DNA from: an uncultured Hyphomonadaceae bacterium
GTDB lineage: Bacteria; Pseudomonadota; Alphaproteobacteria; Caulobacterales; Maricaulaceae
Length of the DNA stretch: 64,000 nucleotides
Direction: 5' to 3'
Assembly (NCBI GenBank): GCA_913058335.1
Contig: CAJXPX010000006.1
Span: 124,001 to 188,000, forward strand
Part shown: piece by piece, positions 41,679-55,461 of the stretch
Position numbering within the stretch: the stretch's first letter is position 1
Layout of the letters: every line of letters begins with the position of its first letter
The notes under the pieces: generated by a model
What the model saw: only the letters and a program-made list of their open reading frames with translations
Databases searched by the model: none
What the model was told of the DNA's origin: nothing
Position numbers and translations under genes: made by a program

Positions 41679-41733
41679 CGCTCGCTCTGAATAATTCTTG
41701 ACGCCGCCGTCCTGGCCCCTCATATCCACCCTA

Positions 41734-41820
41734 CTCATCAAGACCGACCGAGGGACAGGCCCTTTGACGTCGGGGCAACCCAGAAGGTGCCAAATCCTGC
41801 GGCGAAAGTCGGAAGATGAG
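41734..41820 (+). promoter_or_regulatory. SAM-I type (S-box) riboswitch
   Basis: The outer stem is CTCATC (41734-41739) with GATGAG (41815-41820). Between them are the S-box core elements in order: AAGAC after P1, GAGGGACAGGCCCTTTGA, GGGGCAACC, AAGGTGCCAAATCCTGC. These match the SAM-I consensus closely. The element lies 75 bp before metX, whose pathway leads to methionine and SAM. It should switch the metX-metB operon off when SAM is plentiful. Confidence 0.92.
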
Positions 41821-41863
41821 ACGAAGAGGCTCCCTGCCCTCGTTTTCTCCCGCTTTTGATTGC

Positions 41864-44037: not shown

Positions 44038-44160
44038 AAATCATTTATATTGGAAATATTTTTCAGAGATTTAATATAATTCGCAAGTGACCAGTAAATT
44101 TTTTCCTTGAGCCCCTCACATCTTTCACTTAAAGAATTTATCGAGTTTAAGCAGGATAAC

Positions 44161-44304
44161 ATGAACCCTATTAATAATCAGAAAGACCCAGACGTCATAG
44201 TCGCCGCGCAAGAGATTAGCGTGAACGATTTGCCGTCTATTGGACTCCTTCTCCTATCTTTAGTGGTGGTGCTGCTGATTAGCGGAGTCGCGAGCGGGTT
44301 TTAG
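44161..44304 (+). CDS. Probable leader peptide of the ilv-leu operon
   Basis: This 47-codon frame begins with ATG 44161, AGGA seven bases upstream. Residues 29-43 read LLLLSLVVVLLISGV, so 12 of 15 are Leu, Val or Ile, and the peptide ends SGF. The last codons (GCG AGC GGG TTT) contain GAGCGGGT, identical to the 3' arm of the terminator that follows. The end product of the operon is exactly these three amino acids. The layout is that of an attenuator leader. A shorter start at GTG 44221 would still contain the run. The alternative is a small membrane protein, since the run could also be a helix. Confidence 0.8.
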   Translation: MNPINNQKDPDVIVAAQEISVNDLPSIGLLLLSLVVVLLISGVASGF

Positions 44305-44354
44305 AATAAATGTAAATTCTAGATATCACCCGCTCCAACCAGAGCGGGTTTTTT
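44292..44354 (+). promoter_or_regulatory. Transcription attenuator for branched-chain amino acid genes
   Basis: The terminator stem ACCCGCTC (44328-44335) and GAGCGGGT (44342-44349), loop CAACCA, is followed by six T residues. A second exact copy of GAGCGGGT lies at 44292-44299, inside the leader frame just before its stop at 44302-44304. It can pair with the same ACCCGCTC to form an antiterminator. A ribosome stalled at the Leu/Val/Ile run leaves 44292-44299 free, so the operon is on. One that reaches the stop covers it, so the terminator forms and transcription ends. This is inferred from sequence geometry. Confidence 0.82.
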
Positions 44355-44387
44355 ATTGCGTATAAATTGGTGAGTTGAAACGAAATT

Positions 44388-46070
44388 ATGACTGAAAAGA
44401 ACGACACAAAGCGAAGTGATGCGATTGTCAAAGGCCCGAGCCGCGCCGCTGCGCGCGCTATGCTACGCGCCTCGGGCATGGACGACGAAAACTTCGAAGG
44501 CCCCATCATTGCGGTCTTCAATACATGGACCAATATGGGCCCGTGCAACATGGACCTCGACAAACTCGCTGTTCCGGTTCGGGCTGGCATCCGTGCTGCA
44601 GGCGGGACGCCGGTCGATTTCAACTCCATCGCCGTTTCCGATGGTATAACGATGGGCAGTGAAGGGATGCGCGCCAGTTTAATGTCGCGCGAAGTGATTG
44701 CAGATTCGATCGAACTCGCCGTCAAAGGTCACAGCCTTGACGGCGTTATTATTTTGGTGGGGTGTGATAAAACCATTCCGGCGGCGGGCATGGCCTTGGC
44801 CCGGATGAACGTTCCCGGACTCGTGCTTTACGGCGGCTCTATCATGCCCGGAAATCACAAAGGCAAAGACCTTTCGGTTCAGGACGTCTTCGAAGCGGTA
44901 GGGGCCTGCGCCGCCGGCATAATTGATGACGAAGAATTAAAAGATATTGAAAAAGCCGCCTGTCCCGGGGCGGGGGCTTGCGGCGGTCAATTCACCGCCA
45001 ATTCGATGGCTATGGCAATGACTTTTCTTGGCCTCTCTCCAATGGGAATAAATGATATTCCGGCGGTAGATGAAGAAAAGAACAAAGCGGCTTATCGCGC
45101 CGGACAAATTGTTGTTGAGTGTGTGAAAGAGAACCGCCTACCACGGGACATGGTCACGCACACTTCATTAATGAATGCCGCAATTGCGCTTTCTGCGACG
45201 GCCGCTTCGACCAATGCGATTTTACATTTGCTCGCCATCGCCTCCGAGGCCGAAGTCAAGGACTTCAATATTGACGCTTTCGACAGCATCTCCCGAAATA
45301 CCCCTGTCATCGGCGACCTAAAGCCGGGTGGAAAGTATATGGCGTTCAATCTGTATGAAGCCGGAGGTTCAGCCTTAATCGGTCAACGCCTCGTTGAAGA
45401 CGGGCGGATTGAGGATAGCCCGACTGTTACGGGTCGAAGCCTGTTCGAAGAAATCATCGACGCCAAAGAAGCGGAAGGGCAAGACGTTGTTCGTCATTTT
45501 GATAACCCTGTTAAATCCCGCGGCGGCTACGGCATTCTTTACGGTGACCTCGCGCCCGAAGGCTGCGTCGTCAAACTCGCAGGTCACGGCGCGCTATTCT
45601 TTGAAGGCACGGCAAGAGTGTTCGAATCCGAAGAAGAGTGCTTCGAGGTCGTCCAAAATAACGGCATCAATAAGGGCGATGTTATCATCATCCGTAATGA
45701 AGGCCCCGCAGGCGGGCCGGGCATGCGCGAAATGCTTGGCGTCACGGCCGCCCTCGTCGGGCAGGACCTTGCCGACCATGTTGCACTTATCACTGACGGA
45801 CGTTTTTCCGGCGCCAGCTACGGCTTTGTGATTGGCCATGTCGCGCCCGAAGCGGCCCATGGCGGGCCTATCGCCTTTGTTCAAAACGGGGACAAAGTCA
45901 CAATTGATGTCGAGGCACAAACCATCAATGTCGAGGCCGATTTGAAAGCCAGATCTAAGGGCTGGACACCGCCCAAAGCAAAATACCCCAGCGGGGCCTA
46001 TGCCAAATTTGCTAAACTCGTCGGCAGCGCGTCTAAGGGTGCCATAACTTCTTTTCCTTTTTCCAATTAA
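44388..46070 (+). CDS. ilvD: Dihydroxy-acid dehydratase
   Basis: This iron-sulfur enzyme dehydrates dihydroxy acids to the keto acids of valine and isoleucine. It is 560 aa. Cluster Cys residues are seen in [18 protein letters not shown] and [15 protein letters not shown]. The C-terminal motif [11 protein letters not shown] and [12 protein letters not shown] are typical. It is the first structural gene of a nine-gene plus-strand operon and starts 33 bp after the attenuator T run, so its transcription should depend on attenuation. Confidence 0.97.
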
Positions 46071-47117
<1,047 letters not shown>

Positions 47118-47173: not shown

Positions 47174-48916
47174 ATGACCACAGCCATGCAGTTTGACATA
47201 CAGAGAGCCGAAATTCTCGAAGACCGCGAGCCGAAATCAGGCGCGCAGCTCTTGCTGGAATCGATTGCCGCGCAAGGCGTGGAAACTATTTTTGGTTATC
47301 CCGGCGGCGCGATCATGCCGGTTTATGACGTCTTGCCACGTGTGCCTCAGCTGAGTCATATCCTTTGCCGCCATGAACAGGGGTGCGGCATGGCCGCGAT
47401 TGGCTATGCCCGCGCCACTGGGAAAACCGGCACGGCCTTTGCCACTTCTGGTCCCGGCGCGACCAATCTCGTTACTTCCATTGCTGAGGCCTATCTCGAC
47501 TCGGTTCCTGTGGTTTTTGTCACCGGTCAGGTCGCGACAAACCTCATCGGAACGGATGCGTTTCAGGAGGTCGATATTTTCGGTATTACCCTGCCCATCG
47601 TCAAACACAGCTATATTGCCCGCGACCCGGCCGATATTCCGGGCATGGTGGCCGAAGCCTATTTCATCGCAGGCGAAGGCCGCCCCGGCCCTGTTCTGAT
47701 TGACCTCCCGAAAGACGTTGCCAACGCACTTACGACAGAGCGTCATCGCTGGCGGCCTTACCCAAAGCAAAAGCCCGAAATGGGCAAAAGCAAAGACATA
47801 GCGGCGGCTGAAAAACTTATGCGCGATGCCAAAAAGCCGCTCTTTTATATTGGCGGCGGCATTGCTCAGGGTGACGGAGTCCAGGAAATTCGTGACCTTG
47901 TGGAGCGGACGCAAATTCCCGTTGTTTCAACATTAAAGGGTCTCGGCTCGCTTCCGAATGATCATCCGAATTATTTAGGGATGCTCGGCATGCACGGCCT
48001 TCGCGCCGCCAATTACGCGGTGCAGGAGTGTGACTTGCTCATAGTCGCAGGCGCGCGGTTTGATGACCGCGCCACCGGAAAACTGGACACGTTCGCGCCG
48101 AACGCCAAAGTCGTTCATCTGGATATTGACGTTGCGGAAATAGATAAACTCCGTCGCGTGAATGTCGGCTTGGACGGGTCACTTAAAAAGAACCTCGCCG
48201 CACTTGATCCCTTCAAGGACAACGCCGAGCATGAGGATATTAGCGAGTGGACAAAGCTCTGCTATGACCGCCGCACGGAACATGCGTGGGATTATAAATC
48301 GCCCATCACCAATATGACGAGCGGCGGCATTTACGCCCCTAAGCTCCTCCACGATCTCTCGCGCCGCGCGGACGACAGCGCAATCATCACTTGTGATGTG
48401 GGACAGCATCAAATGTGGGTGGCGCAGCATTGTTACTTCGATGATCCGAAAGATCACATCACGTCCGGGGGATTGGGGACCATGGGCTTCGGTCTGCCTG
48501 CTGGCCTCGGCGCAAAACTCGGCGCGCCGGACAGAACCGTTATCACGGTGTCCGGCGACGGGTCTATCATGATGAACATTCAAGAACTCGCAACGCTCAA
48601 CCGTTACGACATTCCGCTGAAAATCGTCCTGCTCGATAACTCAGCCCTGGGTATGGTGCGCCAATGGCAAGAAGTGTTCTTTGAGAAAAACTACTCCGAA
48701 GTGAATCTTGACGACAATCCGGATTTCGCCGCCGTCGCCAAGGCGTTTCAAATCGACGCCTTTACCATCACGCGCGGCGATGAGGTTGACGCGGGTATAG
48801 ACCGCCTGCTCTCCACAAACGGCCCCGTCCTCATGCACGTCAAAATCGATACGGCCGAAAATGTCTGGCCGCTCGTCCCGCCCGGGCGAAGCAATGCCGA
48901 TATGATGGAGCGGTAG
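47174..48916 (+). CDS. ilvB: Acetolactate synthase, large (catalytic) subunit
   Basis: This ThDP- and FAD-dependent enzyme condenses pyruvate with pyruvate or 2-ketobutyrate, the first common step of valine, leucine and isoleucine. It is 580 aa. The N-terminal domain has GYPGGAIMPVYDVL and the catalytic Glu in CRHEQGCGMAA. The ThDP-binding motif is GDGSIMMNIQELATLNRYD with a metal site ending in LLDNSALGM. A 112-bp gap with only weak hairpins separates it from the small-subunit gene. Confidence 0.97.
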   Translation: MTTAMQFDIQRAEILEDREPKSGAQLLLESIAAQGVETIFGYPGGAIMPVYDVLPRVPQLSHILCRHEQGCGMAAIGYARATGKTGTAFATSGPGATNLVTSIAEAYLDSVPVVFVTGQVATNLIGTDAFQEVDIFGITLPIVKHSYIARDPADIPGMVAEAYFIAGEGRPGPVLIDLPKDVANALTTERHRWRPYPKQKPEMGKSKDIAAAEKLMRDAKKPLFYIGGGIAQGDGVQEIRDLVERTQIPVVSTLKGLGSLPNDHPNYLGMLGMHGLRAANYAVQECDLLIVAGARFDDRATGKLDTFAPNAKVVHLDIDVAEIDKLRRVNVGLDGSLKKNLAALDPFKDNAEHEDISEWTKLCYDRRTEHAWDYKSPITNMTSGGIYAPKLLHDLSRRADDSAIITCDVGQHQMWVAQHCYFDDPKDHITSGGLGTMGFGLPAGLGAKLGAPDRTVITVSGDGSIMMNIQELATLNRYDIPLKIVLLDNSALGMVRQWQEVFFEKNYSEVNLDDNPDFAAVAKAFQIDAFTITRGDEVDAGIDRLLSTNGPVLMHVKIDTAENVWPLVPPGRSNADMMER

Positions 48917-49029: not shown

Positions 49030-49338
49030 ATGATGGCTGAATTACAACGTGATAAGACATTCGAACCTTCAGGTATTCAAGGCAAGCTGAAAGCCGTCCT
49101 TCACGACGTTCAGGGCACGCTTTTGCGCACGCTCGGCACGATCGAACGGCGCGGATATGATTATCGCGACGTGCATTGTACCCAGCGCGTGGACGGAAAT
49201 TTCGACTTGCTCGTCCATGTCGAGGATACGGGCGGACCGAATGATCTTGACCTTCTCTGCCGACAACTGGAACGACTGTACAATGTCGTCTCCGCCGAGC
49301 GCGTTGGACGACGTACAAGAGCTGAACACGCAGAGTAA
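49030..49338 (+). CDS. Acetolactate synthase small subunit, short IlvM-like ACT protein
   Basis: This 102-residue protein has one ACT domain, 'GTLLRTLGTIERRGYDYRD' to 'LERLYNVVSAERVG', with a short N-terminal lead and a basic tail. Proteins of this shape regulate acetolactate synthase, here the ilvB product, and can confer valine feedback. Most alphaproteobacterial versions (IlvH) are about 160-180 aa and have a second domain. The single-domain form resembles enterobacterial IlvM. Two start codons are possible, ATG 49030 and ATG 49033; the second has better spacing from GGAG. Confidence 0.78.
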   Translation: MMAELQRDKTFEPSGIQGKLKAVLHDVQGTLLRTLGTIERRGYDYRDVHCTQRVDGNFDLLVHVEDTGGPNDLDLLCRQLERLYNVVSAERVGRRTRAEHAE

Positions 49339-49363: not shown

Positions 49364-50914
49364 ATGACCGACACACACGTCAAAATTTTTGATACCACTT
49401 TACGCGACGGCGAACAGGCGCCCGGCTTTTCCATGAGCGCGGGCCAAAAGCTACAAATGGCAAAAGCGCTGGAGGCCCTGAATGTCGATGTGATGGAAGC
49501 TGGATTCGCCGCGGCTTCCCCCGGTGATTTCGAAGCCGTCAAAACGATAGCCACCGAAGTCAAAGAATCGGTGGTTTGCTCCCTCTCGCGCTGCAATGAA
49601 GGCGACATTCGCGCCAGTGGCGAGGCCATAAAACCTGCCGCACAAGGCCGCATCCATACCTTCATCGCAACCTCGCCGCTGCACCGCGAATTTAAACTTA
49701 AAATGTCCAAGGACGAAATAGTGCGCCGCGCAATTGCCGGCATTGAACTCGCTCGTAATTACACGGACGATGTCGAATTTTCCTGCGAAGACGCCATCCG
49801 CACGGAACGCGATTATTTGAAACGGGTCTGCGAAGCCGCCATCAAAGCCGGCGCCACGACAATCAATATTCCGGATACAGTTGGCTATACCACACCCGAA
49901 GAAATTCAGGATCTATTCGAATTTCTAGTGCGCGAAATCGAAGGGGGAGAAGAGGTAATCTTCTCGGCCCATTGCCATAATGATTTGGGTTTGGCCGTTG
50001 CCAACTCATTGGCGGCCGTACGCGGCGGCGCTCGGCAGGTGGAATGTGCCCTGAACGGCATTGGCGAACGGGCGGGCAATAGCGCACTTGAGGAAGTCGC
50101 CATGGCCCTTCGCACGCGGGCCGATTTTTATGGCCTTTCTACGCAATTAAAAACGCAAGGGCTTTACGGCGCGTCGAAACTCCTCGCGACGATTACGGGC
50201 AACCCCGTTCCGCGCAATAAAGCCATCATCGGCAAGAACGCCTTCGCGCATGAAAGCGGCATTCATCAGCACGGCGTGCTTGCCAATCGCGAAACTTATG
50301 AAATCATGAAACCCGAAGATGTCGGGGTCAGCACGGACAATCTCATTCTCGGCAAACATTCGGGTCGCGCCGCTCTGAAAGACCGCGCGCAAAAGCTCGG
50401 CTTTGATTTGGGCGAGAACCAGCTCCAGACTGTGTTCGTCTCGTTCAAAGCCTTAGCCGACGAGAAAAAAGAAGTGTTCGACGCCGATATTGAAGCCATC
50501 ATTTTGGGCGAAGCTGTGGGCGAAAGTGGGCCGTGGCATATCGACAGTCTCTATGTCTCCGCTGGGTCGGATGATGGCAAAAACCCTGTAGCGACAGTAA
50601 AACTCCACCATGATGACGGGCGCGAAGAAAAATGGAGCCAAGAAGCTGCCGGGCCGGTCAATGCGACTTTCCTCGCCATATCGCACATCACCGGACAGCC
50701 GCTCCATCTCGACAGTTTTTCGGTTCAATCCGTATCGGAAGGCGAAGACGCCATGGCCGAAGCCTCGGTTCAGGTCAGCACAGAGTTTAACGCCTATCAT
50801 GGCCGCGGAACAAGCACGGACACCGTCCTCGCCGGAGCGCGGGCCTATCTCGACGTCATCAACCGCATTGAACGGAGAGCCGATCGCCAAAAAGCGATCG
50901 CAGCGCAGCATTAG
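49364..50914 (+). CDS. leuA: 2-isopropylmalate synthase
   Basis: This enzyme adds acetyl-CoA to ketoisovalerate, the first step of leucine synthesis. It is 516 aa. The catalytic domain begins [18 protein letters not shown] and has the metal motif [14 protein letters not shown]. The C-terminal regulatory domain (about residues 390-510) is the leucine-sensing LeuA dimer domain. It lies 25 bp after the small subunit gene and 2 bp before leuC. Confidence 0.97.
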
Positions 50915-50916
50915 AA

Positions 50917-52320
50917 ATGACTGAACACCCTAAAACCCTCTTCGATAAAATTTGGCATCGTCACATTGTTGTGCCGGAGTCTTCAGCCCATCCGGCAACG
51001 GTCTATATTGATCTGCATCTCATCCATGAAGTCACGAGCCCGCAGGCCTTTACCGTGTTACGCGAGCGCGGATTGAAAGTCCGCCGCCCGGATCGGACGC
51101 TGGCCACCATTGATCATTCCACTCCGACTTTGAAAAATACTGACGGTTCGCGCCCTTTTGTGACGGAGCAAGCCGAAAAACAGGTCGATATGCTGCTCGC
51201 AAACACAAAAGAATACGGCATTGAAACGCACGGATTCGATTCGGACTATCGCGGCATTGTTCACGTGATGGGGCCGGAGCTGGGCGCGACACAGCCCGGC
51301 ATGACCATTGTCTGCGGCGACAGTCATACCTCGACCCACGGCGCATTCGGCGCGATTGCGTTTGGCATTGGTACAACGCAAGTCGGCCATGTTTTGGCCA
51401 ATCAGTGCCTTCTCATGCGCAAACCCAAAACCATGGCCATTCATGTCGACGGAGAATTGGGCGACGGCGTATCTGCCAAAGACGTCATCCTTGCCATTAT
51501 CGCTGAAATCGGCGTTGGCGGCGGAACCGGTTACGCGCTGGAATATCGTGGGTCTGTGTTCGAAAACATGACGATGGATGAACGCATGACGGTTTGTAAC
51601 ATGTCGATTGAGGCCGGCGCGAGATGCGGATTAATTGCGCCGGATGAAATCACATTTAATTATTTAAAAGGGAGGAAATTCGCGCCTGATAATTTTGATG
51701 CCGCCTGTAAAGACTGGGCGAGCCTCGCCACGGATGACGGCGCAGCTTACGATAAAGAAGTCCACCTCAAGGCCGAGGACATCCGCCCCATGGTGACATA
51801 CGGCACCCACCCCGGCATGGCGATGCCGATTGACGGAATGGTTCCTGCCGCCACAGATGAAGCCGAAGAAAAAGCGCTCGGATATATGTCGATGACAGCG
51901 GGCGGCCCGATTACGGGCGCAAAAGTAAACCGAGTCTTTATCGGCTCCTGCACCAATTCTCGAATGGACGACCTCCGCTCTGCCGCGCGTATTATGAAAG
52001 GCCGCAAAGTCATTGAAGGCGTTACCACGATTGTTGTTCCTGGCAGCGAGCAAATCAAAACCGAAGCTGAAGCCGAAGGTCTGCACAAAATATTCACGGC
52101 GGCGGGTGCAGAATGGCGCGAGCCGGGGTGTTCGATGTGTATCGCCATGAACGGTGATAAAGCGATGCCGGGCGAATTAGTTGTTTCGACCTCCAACCGA
52201 AATTTTGCGGGCCGACAAGGCCCGGGCGCAAGAACGGTTCTCGCCAGCCCGGAAACAGCCGCCGCCGCCGCCGTGACAGGCGTGATCACAGATGCCCGAA
52301 CCTTAAAGGGAGCCGCCTAA
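50917..52320 (+). CDS. leuC: 3-isopropylmalate dehydratase, large subunit
   Basis: This is the aconitase-like subunit that carries the [4Fe-4S] cluster and isomerises 2- to 3-isopropylmalate. It is 467 aa. The cluster ligands are the Cys in [12 protein letters not shown] and the pair in [12 protein letters not shown]. The substrate residues [12 protein letters not shown] are present. Its last base overlaps the first base of leuD, so the two subunits are coupled in translation. Confidence 0.97.
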
Positions 52321-52895
52321 TGACCTTTGCTCCCCTTACCACCATCACGTCTAAAACCCTCGTCCTTCCGGCAGCAAATATTGATACGGATCAGATTATT
52401 CCCGCGCGGTTTTTGACCGTGACGTCCCGCGACGGCCTTGGCGAACATGCGTTTCATGACTGGCGCTATACTGAAGACGGCTCGGCCACGGATCATATCC
52501 TCAATACGGACGACGCCAAGCAATGCAAAATCCTGATTGGCGGGCACAATTTCGGATGTGGGTCCTCGCGCGAACACGCGCCTTGGTCCCTAACAGATTA
52601 CGGCTTTCGTGTCGTTATTAGCTCTGAGATTGCGGATATTTTCAAAAGCAATTCCCTGAAAAATGGACTTCTCCCAATTGTAATTGATAAACGCGCCCAT
52701 GAATGGCTGCTCGATAATCCCGGAGCGGATGTCACGGTTGATTTGGAAAGCTGTGAAGTACGCCTGCCGCGCAATGGCGGAACTTATAAATTCGAAATCG
52801 ACGAATTTTCCCGCCACTGCCTGATGCAAGGCGTGGATGAAATGGGGTACCTCGAAATGCAGGCTGACGCGATCAAAGCGTATGAGGCAAATTAA
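52320..52895 (+). CDS. leuD: 3-isopropylmalate dehydratase, small subunit
   Basis: This 191-residue partner of LeuC completes the active site. Family motifs are ANIDTDQIIPARFL near residue 18 and GGHNFGCGSSREHAPW near residue 65. The start ATG at 52320 overlaps the leuC stop (TAATG), and the stop is directly followed by the leuB ATG. The order leuC-leuD-leuB is the common one. Confidence 0.97.
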   Translation: MTFAPLTTITSKTLVLPAANIDTDQIIPARFLTVTSRDGLGEHAFHDWRYTEDGSATDHILNTDDAKQCKILIGGHNFGCGSSREHAPWSLTDYGFRVVISSEIADIFKSNSLKNGLLPIVIDKRAHEWLLDNPGADVTVDLESCEVRLPRNGGTYKFEIDEFSRHCLMQGVDEMGYLEMQADAIKAYEAN

Positions 52896-53942
52896 ATGAA
52901 TATAAATTTTTCTTATCTACCCGGCGATGGTATCGGTCCGGAAGTCGGTGAAGCGGCGATGACTGTCCTGAAAGCGATGGCGACAAAGTTTGACCACTCT
53001 TTGGAGTGTGAATTTCATCTGGTCGGCGGCGCCGCCATTGATGCAAAAGGCGAGCCCTTACCGGTAGAGACATTTGAGTCCTGTAAACGCACTGGCGCTA
53101 TCCTTCTCGGCGCAGTCGGCGGCCCAAAATGGGATCATTTAAAAGGTTCAGACCGGCCTGAGCTTGGCTCTCTGTTGCCTTTGCGCAAAAATCTAAATCT
53201 CTACGCCAATATACGCCCTTGCAAACCTTTTCCGGCTTTGATCGACAAAGCCCCGCTGAAACGCGAAAGACTTGAAGGCACAGATTTTGTTGTCATGCGA
53301 GAACTCACCGGCGGTATTTATTTTGGTGAGAAAGGACGCGATGAAAGCGGCGCATTTGATGAATGTCGTTATTCCGAGAGTGAAGTCCGACGCATCGCCG
53401 TCAAAGCTTTTGATCTCGCTATGACACGCAAGAAAAAGGTCACTTCTGTCGATAAATCAAATGTGCTGGAAACGTCCCGCCTTTGGCGTGAGGTCGTGAT
53501 CGAGGTCGCCAAAGACTATCCCGAAGTTGAACTGGAACACCTCCTCGTCGATGCTATGACCATGCACATGCTTACTCACGCCCAAGACTTTGATGTCATT
53601 CTGACAGAAAATATGTTTGGAGATATATTGACCGATGAAGCTTCTGTACTCTGCGGATCAATGGGCGTCATACCCTCAGCCTCTCTCTCGCACGGTAAGA
53701 CCGGAATGTACGAGCCTATTCACGGCAGCGCGCCGGATATAGCCGGCCAAGGCAAAGCCAATCCGCTCGCTATGATATTGTCCGCCGCCTGGATGCTGCG
53801 CCTGTCTTTTGGTTTGGACAAAGAAGCAGCCGCCATTGAAAACGCGGTCGAGGCCGCATTGCAAGCAGGTCAAACGACAGGTGATTTAGGCGGAGCATTG
53901 AATACATCCCAAGTGGGTGATTGGATCGCCCAGAATGTCTAA
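52896..53942 (+). CDS. leuB: 3-isopropylmalate dehydrogenase
   Basis: This NAD-dependent enzyme oxidises and decarboxylates 3-isopropylmalate to the leucine precursor. It is 348 aa. The N-terminal YLPGDGIGPEVGEAA, GAVGGPKWDHL and the metal and cofactor region DVILTENMFGDILTDEA, followed by HGSAPDIAGQGKANP, are all present. It directly abuts leuD and overlaps ilvA by 8 bp. Confidence 0.97.
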   Translation: MNINFSYLPGDGIGPEVGEAAMTVLKAMATKFDHSLECEFHLVGGAAIDAKGEPLPVETFESCKRTGAILLGAVGGPKWDHLKGSDRPELGSLLPLRKNLNLYANIRPCKPFPALIDKAPLKRERLEGTDFVVMRELTGGIYFGEKGRDESGAFDECRYSESEVRRIAVKAFDLAMTRKKKVTSVDKSNVLETSRLWREVVIEVAKDYPEVELEHLLVDAMTMHMLTHAQDFDVILTENMFGDILTDEASVLCGSMGVIPSASLSHGKTGMYEPIHGSAPDIAGQGKANPLAMILSAAWMLRLSFGLDKEAAAIENAVEAALQAGQTTGDLGGALNTSQVGDWIAQNV

Positions 53943-55461
53943 AGTCAATCTTCATGATCTCAAAGCCCGCATTGAAGCCGCCAATGTCTACGCGCTGGCC
54001 AAACGCACGCCCTGTGAGCTTGCTCCGAAATTGAGCCTTGAGCTTGGTCGAAACACATGGCTCAAACGGGAAGACATGCAAGATGTGTTTAGCTTCAAAA
54101 TTCGCGGGGCAACCAATCGGATTGCTGGTCTGACGGATGAAGAGCGCGCCCGCGGTGTTTGCGCGGCAAGCGCCGGAAATCATGCCCAAGGCGTAGCAGC
54201 GGCTGGCGCTTATTATAATACGGCGGCTGTCATTTTCATGCCCGTTACAACGCCCGCCATTAAAGTCACAGCCGTGGAAAGTCTCGGCGCAGAAACACGG
54301 CTTGTCGGGGATAATTACGACGAAGCGTGCAAAGCCGCTCTGGACTACGCCGAAGAAACGGGCGCGGTCTTTATCCATCCCTTTGACGAAACAGATGTCA
54401 TTGCAGGGCAAGGCACCGTCGGCCGCGAAATTCTAGAGCAAATGCCCCGCACACCAGACGCCGTTTACGTATGCACCGGCGGCGGCGGGTTAGTCTCCGG
54501 CGTGGGCGCTTGGATTAAATCTGTCTCCCCCAAGACGCGCATTATCGCGGTAGAACCCAAGGGCGCGCCCACCCTCGCGACATCTCTAAAAGCAGGCGTC
54601 CCAACCCCGCTGGAGAAAGTCGACAGCTTTGCCGATGGTGTTGCTGTGAAGCTTATCGGGACCAATACATTGGAGATTGCCAAACTCGTCGTGGATGAAG
54701 TTGTCCTCGTTTCGAATGATGAGATTTGCGCCGCCGTCAAAGATGTGTTTGAGGCCACGCGGACCGTCGTAGAGCCAGCCGGAGCCTTGGCTCTTGCGGG
54801 ACTCATAAAGCATACACGCGACGGACAAGCGCCGGAGGGCGATTGCGTTGTGACAATTTCTGGCGCGAACGTAAATTTTGATCGAATCGGCCACATGGTT
54901 GAGCGCGCAGAACTCGGCGCCGGCGAAGAAATGCTTTTTGCCGCCGCTATTCCCGAACGGCCCGGGGCATTTTTGAATTTCTGCAATGCGATGGGCCGAC
55001 GCCCCGTCACCGAATTTAATTACCGATACGCCGAAAGCGAAATTGCTCACGTCCTCGTTGGGATAAAAACCCGCGATCTGGATGAACGAGCTAAAGTCAT
55101 ATCAGATATGGCGAGCCATGATATTACTGTCACCGATTTATCCCAAGATCGCCTCGCTAAACGGCATTTGCGGCACATGGTCGGCGGACGGGCCAGCGCC
55201 GATATTCCCGAAGTGCTATTCCGGTTTGAATTTCCGGAACGTCCCGGCGCTTTGACGGACTTCCTTGTCGCCTTAGACGCGCGCTGGAATATCAGCCTGT
55301 TCCATTATCGTAATCACGGCAATTCAACGGGTCATGTCCTTTGTGGATTTCAGGTTCCGAATGGCGATGTCGATGAACTGGAGGAGAGTCTGGCTAAAAC
55401 GGGTTATCCGATGGCCGTAGAGACCGACAGCAAAGCCTATGAATATTTCTTGCGGGCTTAA
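53935..55461 (+). CDS. ilvA: Threonine dehydratase (biosynthetic)
   Basis: This PLP enzyme deaminates threonine to 2-ketobutyrate, the start of isoleucine synthesis. It is 508 aa from ATG 53935. The PLP lysine is in DVFSFKIRGATNR, the phosphate loop is in CAASAGNHAQGVAAA, and two C-terminal ACT-like regions contain PERPGAFLNF and PERPGALTDFL, where isoleucine binds. The start overlaps leuB by 8 bp. An in-frame GTG at 53917 is possible but less likely. It completes the isoleucine branch of the operon. Confidence 0.95.
   Translation: MSKVNLHDLKARIEAANVYALAKRTPCELAPKLSLELGRNTWLKREDMQDVFSFKIRGATNRIAGLTDEERARGVCAASAGNHAQGVAAAGAYYNTAAVIFMPVTTPAIKVTAVESLGAETRLVGDNYDEACKAALDYAEETGAVFIHPFDETDVIAGQGTVGREILEQMPRTPDAVYVCTGGGGLVSGVGAWIKSVSPKTRIIAVEPKGAPTLATSLKAGVPTPLEKVDSFADGVAVKLIGTNTLEIAKLVVDEVVLVSNDEICAAVKDVFEATRTVVEPAGALALAGLIKHTRDGQAPEGDCVVTISGANVNFDRIGHMVERAELGAGEEMLFAAAIPERPGAFLNFCNAMGRRPVTEFNYRYAESEIAHVLVGIKTRDLDERAKVISDMASHDITVTDLSQDRLAKRHLRHMVGGRASADIPEVLFRFEFPERPGALTDFLVALDARWNISLFHYRNHGNSTGHVLCGFQVPNGDVDELEESLAKTGYPMAVETDSKAYEYFLRA

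Follow-up and report, generated by a model that had tools for sequence, protein, structure and literature searches.

Attenuators that join control codons to alternative hairpins are represented in Rfam by Trp_leader and other leader families. As regards branched-chain amino acids (BCAA), ilvGMEDA is named among the attenuated operons in one source, where the race of ribosome against polymerase assumed in the present model is also described (PMC1183508). In Caulobacter crescentus, a published attenuator precedes ilvBN, and a ribosome that pauses at tandem Ile and Val codons of its leader controls the terminator (PMC4117421), which is the principle proposed for the leader considered here. An alphaproteobacterial ilvB leader peptide is mentioned as previously described in a further paper (PMC1273637). 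The literature searched contained no paper joining ilvD, leader peptide, attenuation and alphaproteobacteria, and none joining Hyphomonadaceae and an attenuator.

The locus compared here with these systems belongs to an uncultured Hyphomonadaceae bacterium with a genome of 3.06 Mb. Judged by IlvD, its named relatives are Hellea, Litorimonas, Algimonas, and Robiginitomaculum, which together with their kin make up the clade referred to below. Between metB and ilvD in the window, namely the whole stretch of 64,000 nucleotides that was analyzed, lies a short frame followed by a terminator and by BCAA genes (Table 1). With a probability of about 0.93, it can be read from the sequence as the leader of a ribosome-mediated transcription attenuator of the ilvD-to-ilvA operon, having the layout of ilvL. 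The coordinates of frame, arms, and terminator in a preliminary description of this DNA all proved right on direct reading.

Table 1. Leader, RNA arms, and BCAA genes in the window, with the basis of each assignment.
Feature	Position	Strand	Basis or detail
Probable leader promoter	44106..44134	+	-35 CTTGAG 44106-44111, 17-nt spacer, -10 TTAAAG 44129-44134
Shine-Dalgarno-like AGGA	44153..44156	+	precedes leader ATG; sequence reading
Leader peptide ORF, 47 codons	44161..44304	+	ATG 44161-44163, stop TAG 44302-44304; direct reading
Leu/Val/Ile codon run forming the control region (codons 29-40)	44245..44280	+	core V36 V37 L38 L39 I40 at 44266-44280
Arm 2, antiterminator 5' arm, GAGCGGGT	44292..44299	+	inside last leader codons
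Inner antiterminator helix	44300..44323	+	44300-44307 with 44316-44323; predicted fold
Arm 3, ACCCGCTC	44328..44335	+	common to antiterminator and terminator
3' side of intrinsic terminator: arm 4 GAGCGGGT with T run	44342..44354	+	arm 4 44342-44349, T to 44354
ilvD, first structural gene	44388..46070	+	NCBIfam PRK00911 732.7 bits, cut-off 644
ilvC	46092..47117	+	NCBIfam PRK05479 537.8 bits, cut-off 336
ilvB, IlvG type (acetolactate synthase 2 catalytic subunit)	47174..48916	+	NCBIfam PRK08978 843.6 bits, cut-off 738; tree
Acetolactate synthase small subunit, ACT domain, IlvM-like (ilvN)	49030..49338	+	Pfam ACT_5 34.2 bits, cut-off 27
leuA, leuC, leuD, leuB	49364..53942	+	
ilvA, last gene of conserved block	53917..55461	+	

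The frame encodes the peptide MNPINNQKDPDVIVAAQEISVNDLPSIGLLLLSLVVVLLISGVASGF, in which 12 of the 15 residues at 29-43 are Leu, Val, or Ile, and ends 23 nt upstream of the terminator hairpin. No match to the peptide was found in Pfam at E up to 0.1 or in NCBIfam at E up to 1. Shine-Dalgarno-like triplets are present at -16 to -5 in 28 of 39 clade leaders. The promoter hexamers, picked by eye and predicted from the sequence, find a parallel in relatives, as 26 of 39 clade regions have CTTG[AT] 40-75 nt upstream of the leader start (0.07 expected per window of that size from flanking sequence); a scan gave another promoter-like site at 44051-44080, one being found where shuffles gave 1.0. In the preliminary description, the leader was held to be unusually long and membrane-helix-like. 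The hydrophobic C-terminus stands, but neither trait is distinctive: leaders of 38-50 codons precede ilvC-ilvG under family code f47, others of at least 37 codons (with predicted start codons) precede ilvD in other genomes of families f1 and f5, and the runs of several relatives contain charged or polar residues. The 39 leaders extracted from the clade themselves range from 32 to 55 codons, again with predicted start codons.

The hydrophilic N-terminal half (44161-44245 in the window) carries a PKVKVA-like motif that is conserved as amino acids, with synonymous changes at several positions, and is kept in many relatives from Hellea, Litorimonas, and Algimonas. Over the clade leaders, pN/pS is 0.50 for the N-terminal part, 0.41 for the run, and 0.74 for the C-terminal part. 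This half is thus conserved although attenuation needs only the C-terminal codons.

The 47-codon frame with its Leu/Val/Ile run and subsequent terminator was recovered as first described, together with the exact copy of the terminator 3' arm inside the frame and the ability of both copies to pair with arm 3. Such a copy is what is expected of the kind, since arm 3 of every attenuator is the pairing partner of arm 2 as well as of arm 4. The two helices are predicted to be mutually exclusive. The predicted antiterminator can extend to 16 pairs (44292-44307 with 44316-44323 and 44328-44335) and reaches -20.0 kcal/mol (z -6.9; 0 of 200 shuffles as stable), vs. -14.3 for the terminator. Its inner helix varies in sequence by lineage and is drawn in most of 39 folds, while the 200-nt stretch 44161-44360 as a whole folds better than 200 of 200 shuffles (z -3.24).

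According to the proposed mechanism, transcription would start shortly upstream of the leader. Scarcity of charged Leu-, Val-, or Ile-tRNA would slow the leading ribosome on the codon run with its front edge short of arm 2, which would be free to pair with arm 3, and with no terminator formed the operon would be transcribed. Given enough charged tRNA, the ribosome would reach the stop codon and cover arm 2, leaving arm 3 to pair with arm 4, and transcription would end near 44354. The distance between the control codons and arm 2 fits this scheme. In the clade, the CGGG within arm 2 starts 8-17 nt past the core codons, at 14 nt in 21 of 39 leaders. A ribosome covers about 10-13 nt ahead of its A site. 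Given this general figure, a ribosome stalled on the core would free arm 2 and one at the stop codon would cover it. As to an upstream protector (1:2) helix, the clade as a whole does not exceed shuffles (median z -0.34, with values below -1.5 in 9 of 39). In the absence of a conserved protector, the antiterminator may form by default when the leader is not translated, resulting in read-through, unlike the textbook trp case.

The arrangement of copied arms at the leader is not due to chance. Counting each distinct site once, the two strands of the window contain six strict terminators, and only that of the ilvD leader has the 7-mer of its 3' arm repeated in the 70 nt upstream; 200 Markov windows, taken on one strand each, gave 18 strict terminators, none with an arm copy. 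On both strands of 38 clade loci, 51 strict terminators were counted, and the exact 7-mer copy was seen in 12, all 12 being at the ilvD leader. A shorter copy that still pairs is found in most of the other clade loci.

The 63 loci drawn on for conservation comprise 35 clade loci with upstream sequence, three without (L033, L059, and L067), and 25 from other groups, among which the one inspected (L077) has no leader. Adding L001, L004, L006, L016, and L019 to the 35 gives 40 upstream regions; 14 further loci, judged by length to be contigs already represented, are not counted again. The preliminary description had named the loss in relatives of the duplicated arm and the Leu/Val/Ile run as evidence against a BCAA attenuator. 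A pairing arm 2 and the run were found by script at the same place in 39 of the 40 regions, which supports that reading; from these 39 the script extracted a leader and a terminator accompanied by a copied or a pairing arm. In the fortieth, L053, leader and terminator are visible on direct reading, and this locus is left out of all counts with n = 39 because its terminator lies more than 400 nt upstream of ilvD, where the script failed. Among the 39 regions, arms 2 and 3 form at least five pairs in 38, the antiterminator is matched in stability by at most 10 of 200 shuffles in 37, and its stability exceeds that of the terminator in 31. The weak cases are L049 (29 of 200 shuffles as stable) and L066 (98 of 200, with the arm chosen by the script); in the latter the script took another arm, and by eye a pairing of CGGGCTC with GAGCCCG is possible. 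The frames of L042 and L055 stop sooner, and arm 2 directly follows their stop codon. Its retention past the stop indicates that arm 2 is preserved for its role in the RNA, not for the codons it contains.

Covariation of arms 2 and 3 in a MAFFT alignment of the clade did not exceed that of shuffles (0.051 vs. 0.059; 444 of 500 shuffles as high), 79.6% of the cells being paired, a result that can be attributed to arms that hardly vary and to some rows out of register. Covariation in the terminator is weak as well, with two of eight pairs changed on both sides. GCGGG and the T run after it are invariant in the 39 aligned rows, but these rows were selected by script for the GCGGG-T pattern. Between the attenuator terminator and ilvD, L055 has a 38-nt tandem repeat in three copies (L055:9871-9989), and similar-looking repeat stretches were seen by eye upstream of ilvD in L056 and L061.

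The five core columns of the run are occupied by Leu, Val, or Ile in 85, 92, 100, 95, and 79% of 39 aligned leaders, 26 leaders having all five, seven having four, and six having only three. Codon choice within the run departs from that in ilvD of 32 relatives (with kinship of the rows uncorrected), GTG making up 59% of Val codons vs. 26%, ATT 84% of Ile codons vs. 52%, and TTG 2% of Leu codons vs. 19%. Pooled over the clade leaders, the run comprises 630 codons, of which 453 encode Leu, Val, or Ile and 43 encode Ala, Phe, Met, or Trp. In L050, L052, L054-L057, and L078, the run is broken by E, K, R, D, or N, yet at least three of the five core positions remain Leu, Val, or Ile.

These features also bear on whether the frame could simply be the gene of a small membrane protein, with the terminator marking an ordinary gene end after it or after metX-metB. 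While the hydrophobic C-terminus and the amino acid conservation of the PKVKVA-like half would suit such a protein, the scarcity of Ala, Phe, Met, and Trp and the charged or polar interruptions with a preserved core would not, and neither the second arm nor its spacing would be explained. Run composition, codon choice, and the interruptions in relatives point to sensing by codons rather than to a membrane helix, and the membrane protein was set aside as the main function of the leader on account of residue make-up and of charged interruptions in several relatives, which speak against an essential membrane helix. As for an ordinary terminator, similar stems do occur at the ends of ordinary genes in the same genome. 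However, among the 40 weaker matches of the RNA model there, the five sites inspected include none with such a leader: four (L095, L097, L098, and L100) are at same-strand gene ends and one (L101) lies between genes. With the same model, the ilv site reaches 63.6 bits, compared with 34.3 for the second-best match. Taken together, this makes the membrane protein with an ordinary gene end very improbable. Across the order, the model matched 38 of 299 genomes at E ≤ 0.01, a figure that includes ordinary terminators among its weak matches and is therefore not a count of attenuators. ACCCGC-like terminator stems recur in the host genome (e.g., G000:C9:151657-151747), some of them matching the model on both strands.

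Direct sensing of an amino acid or tRNA by a riboswitch or T-box, with the frame being incidental, is scarcely credible: the 5' region is structured, as it would be in such an element, but all Rfam families fall short of their gathering scores in the leader region, and the codon run is the conserved coding feature. The Trp, Phe, and Thr leader families of Rfam likewise stay below their gathering scores there; for Trp_leader (RF00513), the score is 20.5 against 41, so that the region is not a member.

The downstream gene content from ilvD to ilvA is as previously described, and it is conserved: 25 of 38 clade loci contain the full series ilvD-ilvC-ilvB-ilvN-leuA-leuC-leuD-leuB-ilvA, and the remaining 13, which are cut short, follow the same order. 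The best NCBIfam match of the small subunit, PRK11152, gives 17.6 bits and falls below its cut-off of 68. Terminator-like sites inside the operon are not in excess (13 vs. 16.4 in shuffles, sd 4.2), and together with the gene order this makes it plausible that a single transcript, and hence one switch, would cover the whole pathway through ilvA. Alternatively, the attenuator may serve ilvD-ilvC-ilvB only, with the leu genes and ilvA having their own promoters. Intergenic spacing does differ widely in relatives, as in the ilvB-ilvN gaps of L037 (about 1 kb) and L060 (1.3 kb) inside an operon that is tight in the window, and promoter-like sites inside the operon, any of which may be active, occur at shuffle frequency (12 vs. 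9.8 expected). Against this restriction to the first genes, which appears doubtful, are the tight spacing from leuA to ilvA in the window, the conserved order, and the terminator-like sites at no more than chance level. The attenuator spanning ilvD to ilvA provides a clear regulatory prediction for a nine-gene BCAA operon in marine alphaproteobacteria.

Upstream of the leader, metX and metB are found in 23 of 30 loci having more than 3.5 kb of upstream sequence and are absent there in L044, L055, L056, L060, L061, L064, and L078. In the window, these genes are preceded by a SAM-I riboswitch (RF00162) at 41732-41822, with 74.3 bits for a cut-off of 44.4, giving two RNA switches in a row, namely a SAM switch for the methionine genes and then the candidate BCAA attenuator.

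Leaders of this layout can be found well outside the clade. In f1 and f5 genomes beyond it, all eight regions with ilvD-ilvC-ilvB have a leader (L021, L023-L028, and L030), no leader was found in the two (L020 and L022) without ilvC within 1.5 kb after ilvD, and in L029, with ilvD-leuA-leuC, a terminator is present and no leader was found. Of 29 ilvB regions belonging to other classes of the phylum, 26 contain both a leader and a terminator, in an ilvL-type layout with arm 2 inside the frame, and none was found within 1.5 kb in L149, L168, and L177. For these eight f1/f5 and 26 other-class leaders, an arm near or in the end of the frame pairs with the terminator 5' arm better than mononucleotide shuffles in 32 of 34 cases, the misses being L030 and L174. 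The arms change together across lineages (GAGCGGG, GGGAGCGG, GGTGCGGG, GTGCGGGG, and AGCGGGGG), each having a matching arm 3. Elsewhere in the window's order (families f2-f4), 9 of 17 regions upstream of ilvB show a short frame that is rich in BCAA and has different arms, and the IlvB belongs to a different clade.

In a tree of 70 IlvB proteins, whose rows, like the distant loci, are best matches and not an even draw, the window, 12 clade rows, and five of seven further f1/f5 rows group with all 29 other-class rows (100/100). The two remaining f1/f5 rows, L180 and L181, have such a leader, but their IlvB falls with the order's other families. The large set is probably of IlvG type and mostly gammaproteobacterial, given that the window IlvB passes the PRK08978 cut-off and that the IlvL peptide of E. 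coli is present without any change in f50 genomes. The grouping of the window IlvB with other classes, and not with the other families of its order, suggests horizontal exchange in one direction or the other. It can be asked whether switch and operon travel together, as the ilvL layout is here found beside an IlvG-type synthase outside enteric bacteria. They do not always do so, since L149 (G460), the nearest IlvB row outside the order, with ilvD-ilvC-ilvB-ilvN-ilvA, has neither leader nor terminator in roughly 750 nt before ilvD. A broader proposal would have the leader doing two jobs, its N-terminal half acting as a peptide, for example through exit-tunnel tuning of ribosome movement or as a small membrane-anchored product, and its C-terminal codons as a sensor, with leader and operon exchanged as a module between gamma- and alphaproteobacteria. 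This combination is improbable. The understanding of attenuation is left unchanged, the conserved N-terminal half being the one point worth a test.

Among the leaders compared, those of f47 before ilvC-ilvG (L152-L155, L167, and L173) resemble that of the window in their length and in an arm 2 (GGTGCGGG) that lies in the frame and pairs with the terminator 5' arm; their run ends in LIT, and their IlvB belongs to the same supported set of the tree as that of the window (98/96). They differ in having ilvC instead of ilvD as the first gene and another arm sequence, and one f47 genome read further has the order ilvC-ilvB-ilvA-leuA-leuC-leuD-leuB. The ilvL leader of E. coli K-12 (ilvXGMEDA; NP_418215.1; NCBIfam PRK10424) has 32 codons, an arm 2 further from the stop, and the gene order ilvX-G-M-E-D-A, unlike the window, and PRK10424, to which the ilvL peptide itself scores 81.9 bits (cut-off 59), has no match in the window peptide at E up to 1. 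Like the window, however, it has a Leu/Val/Ile run rich in GTG and ATT, an arm 2 in the frame (GTGCGGGG) that pairs with the terminator sequence CCCCGCAC (equalled by 4 of 200 shuffles), and acetolactate synthase II genes downstream. The probable switch in the window is well supported and ordinary in kind, the same as that of E. coli ilvL, and it occurs in a lineage for which the literature searched gave no earlier report.
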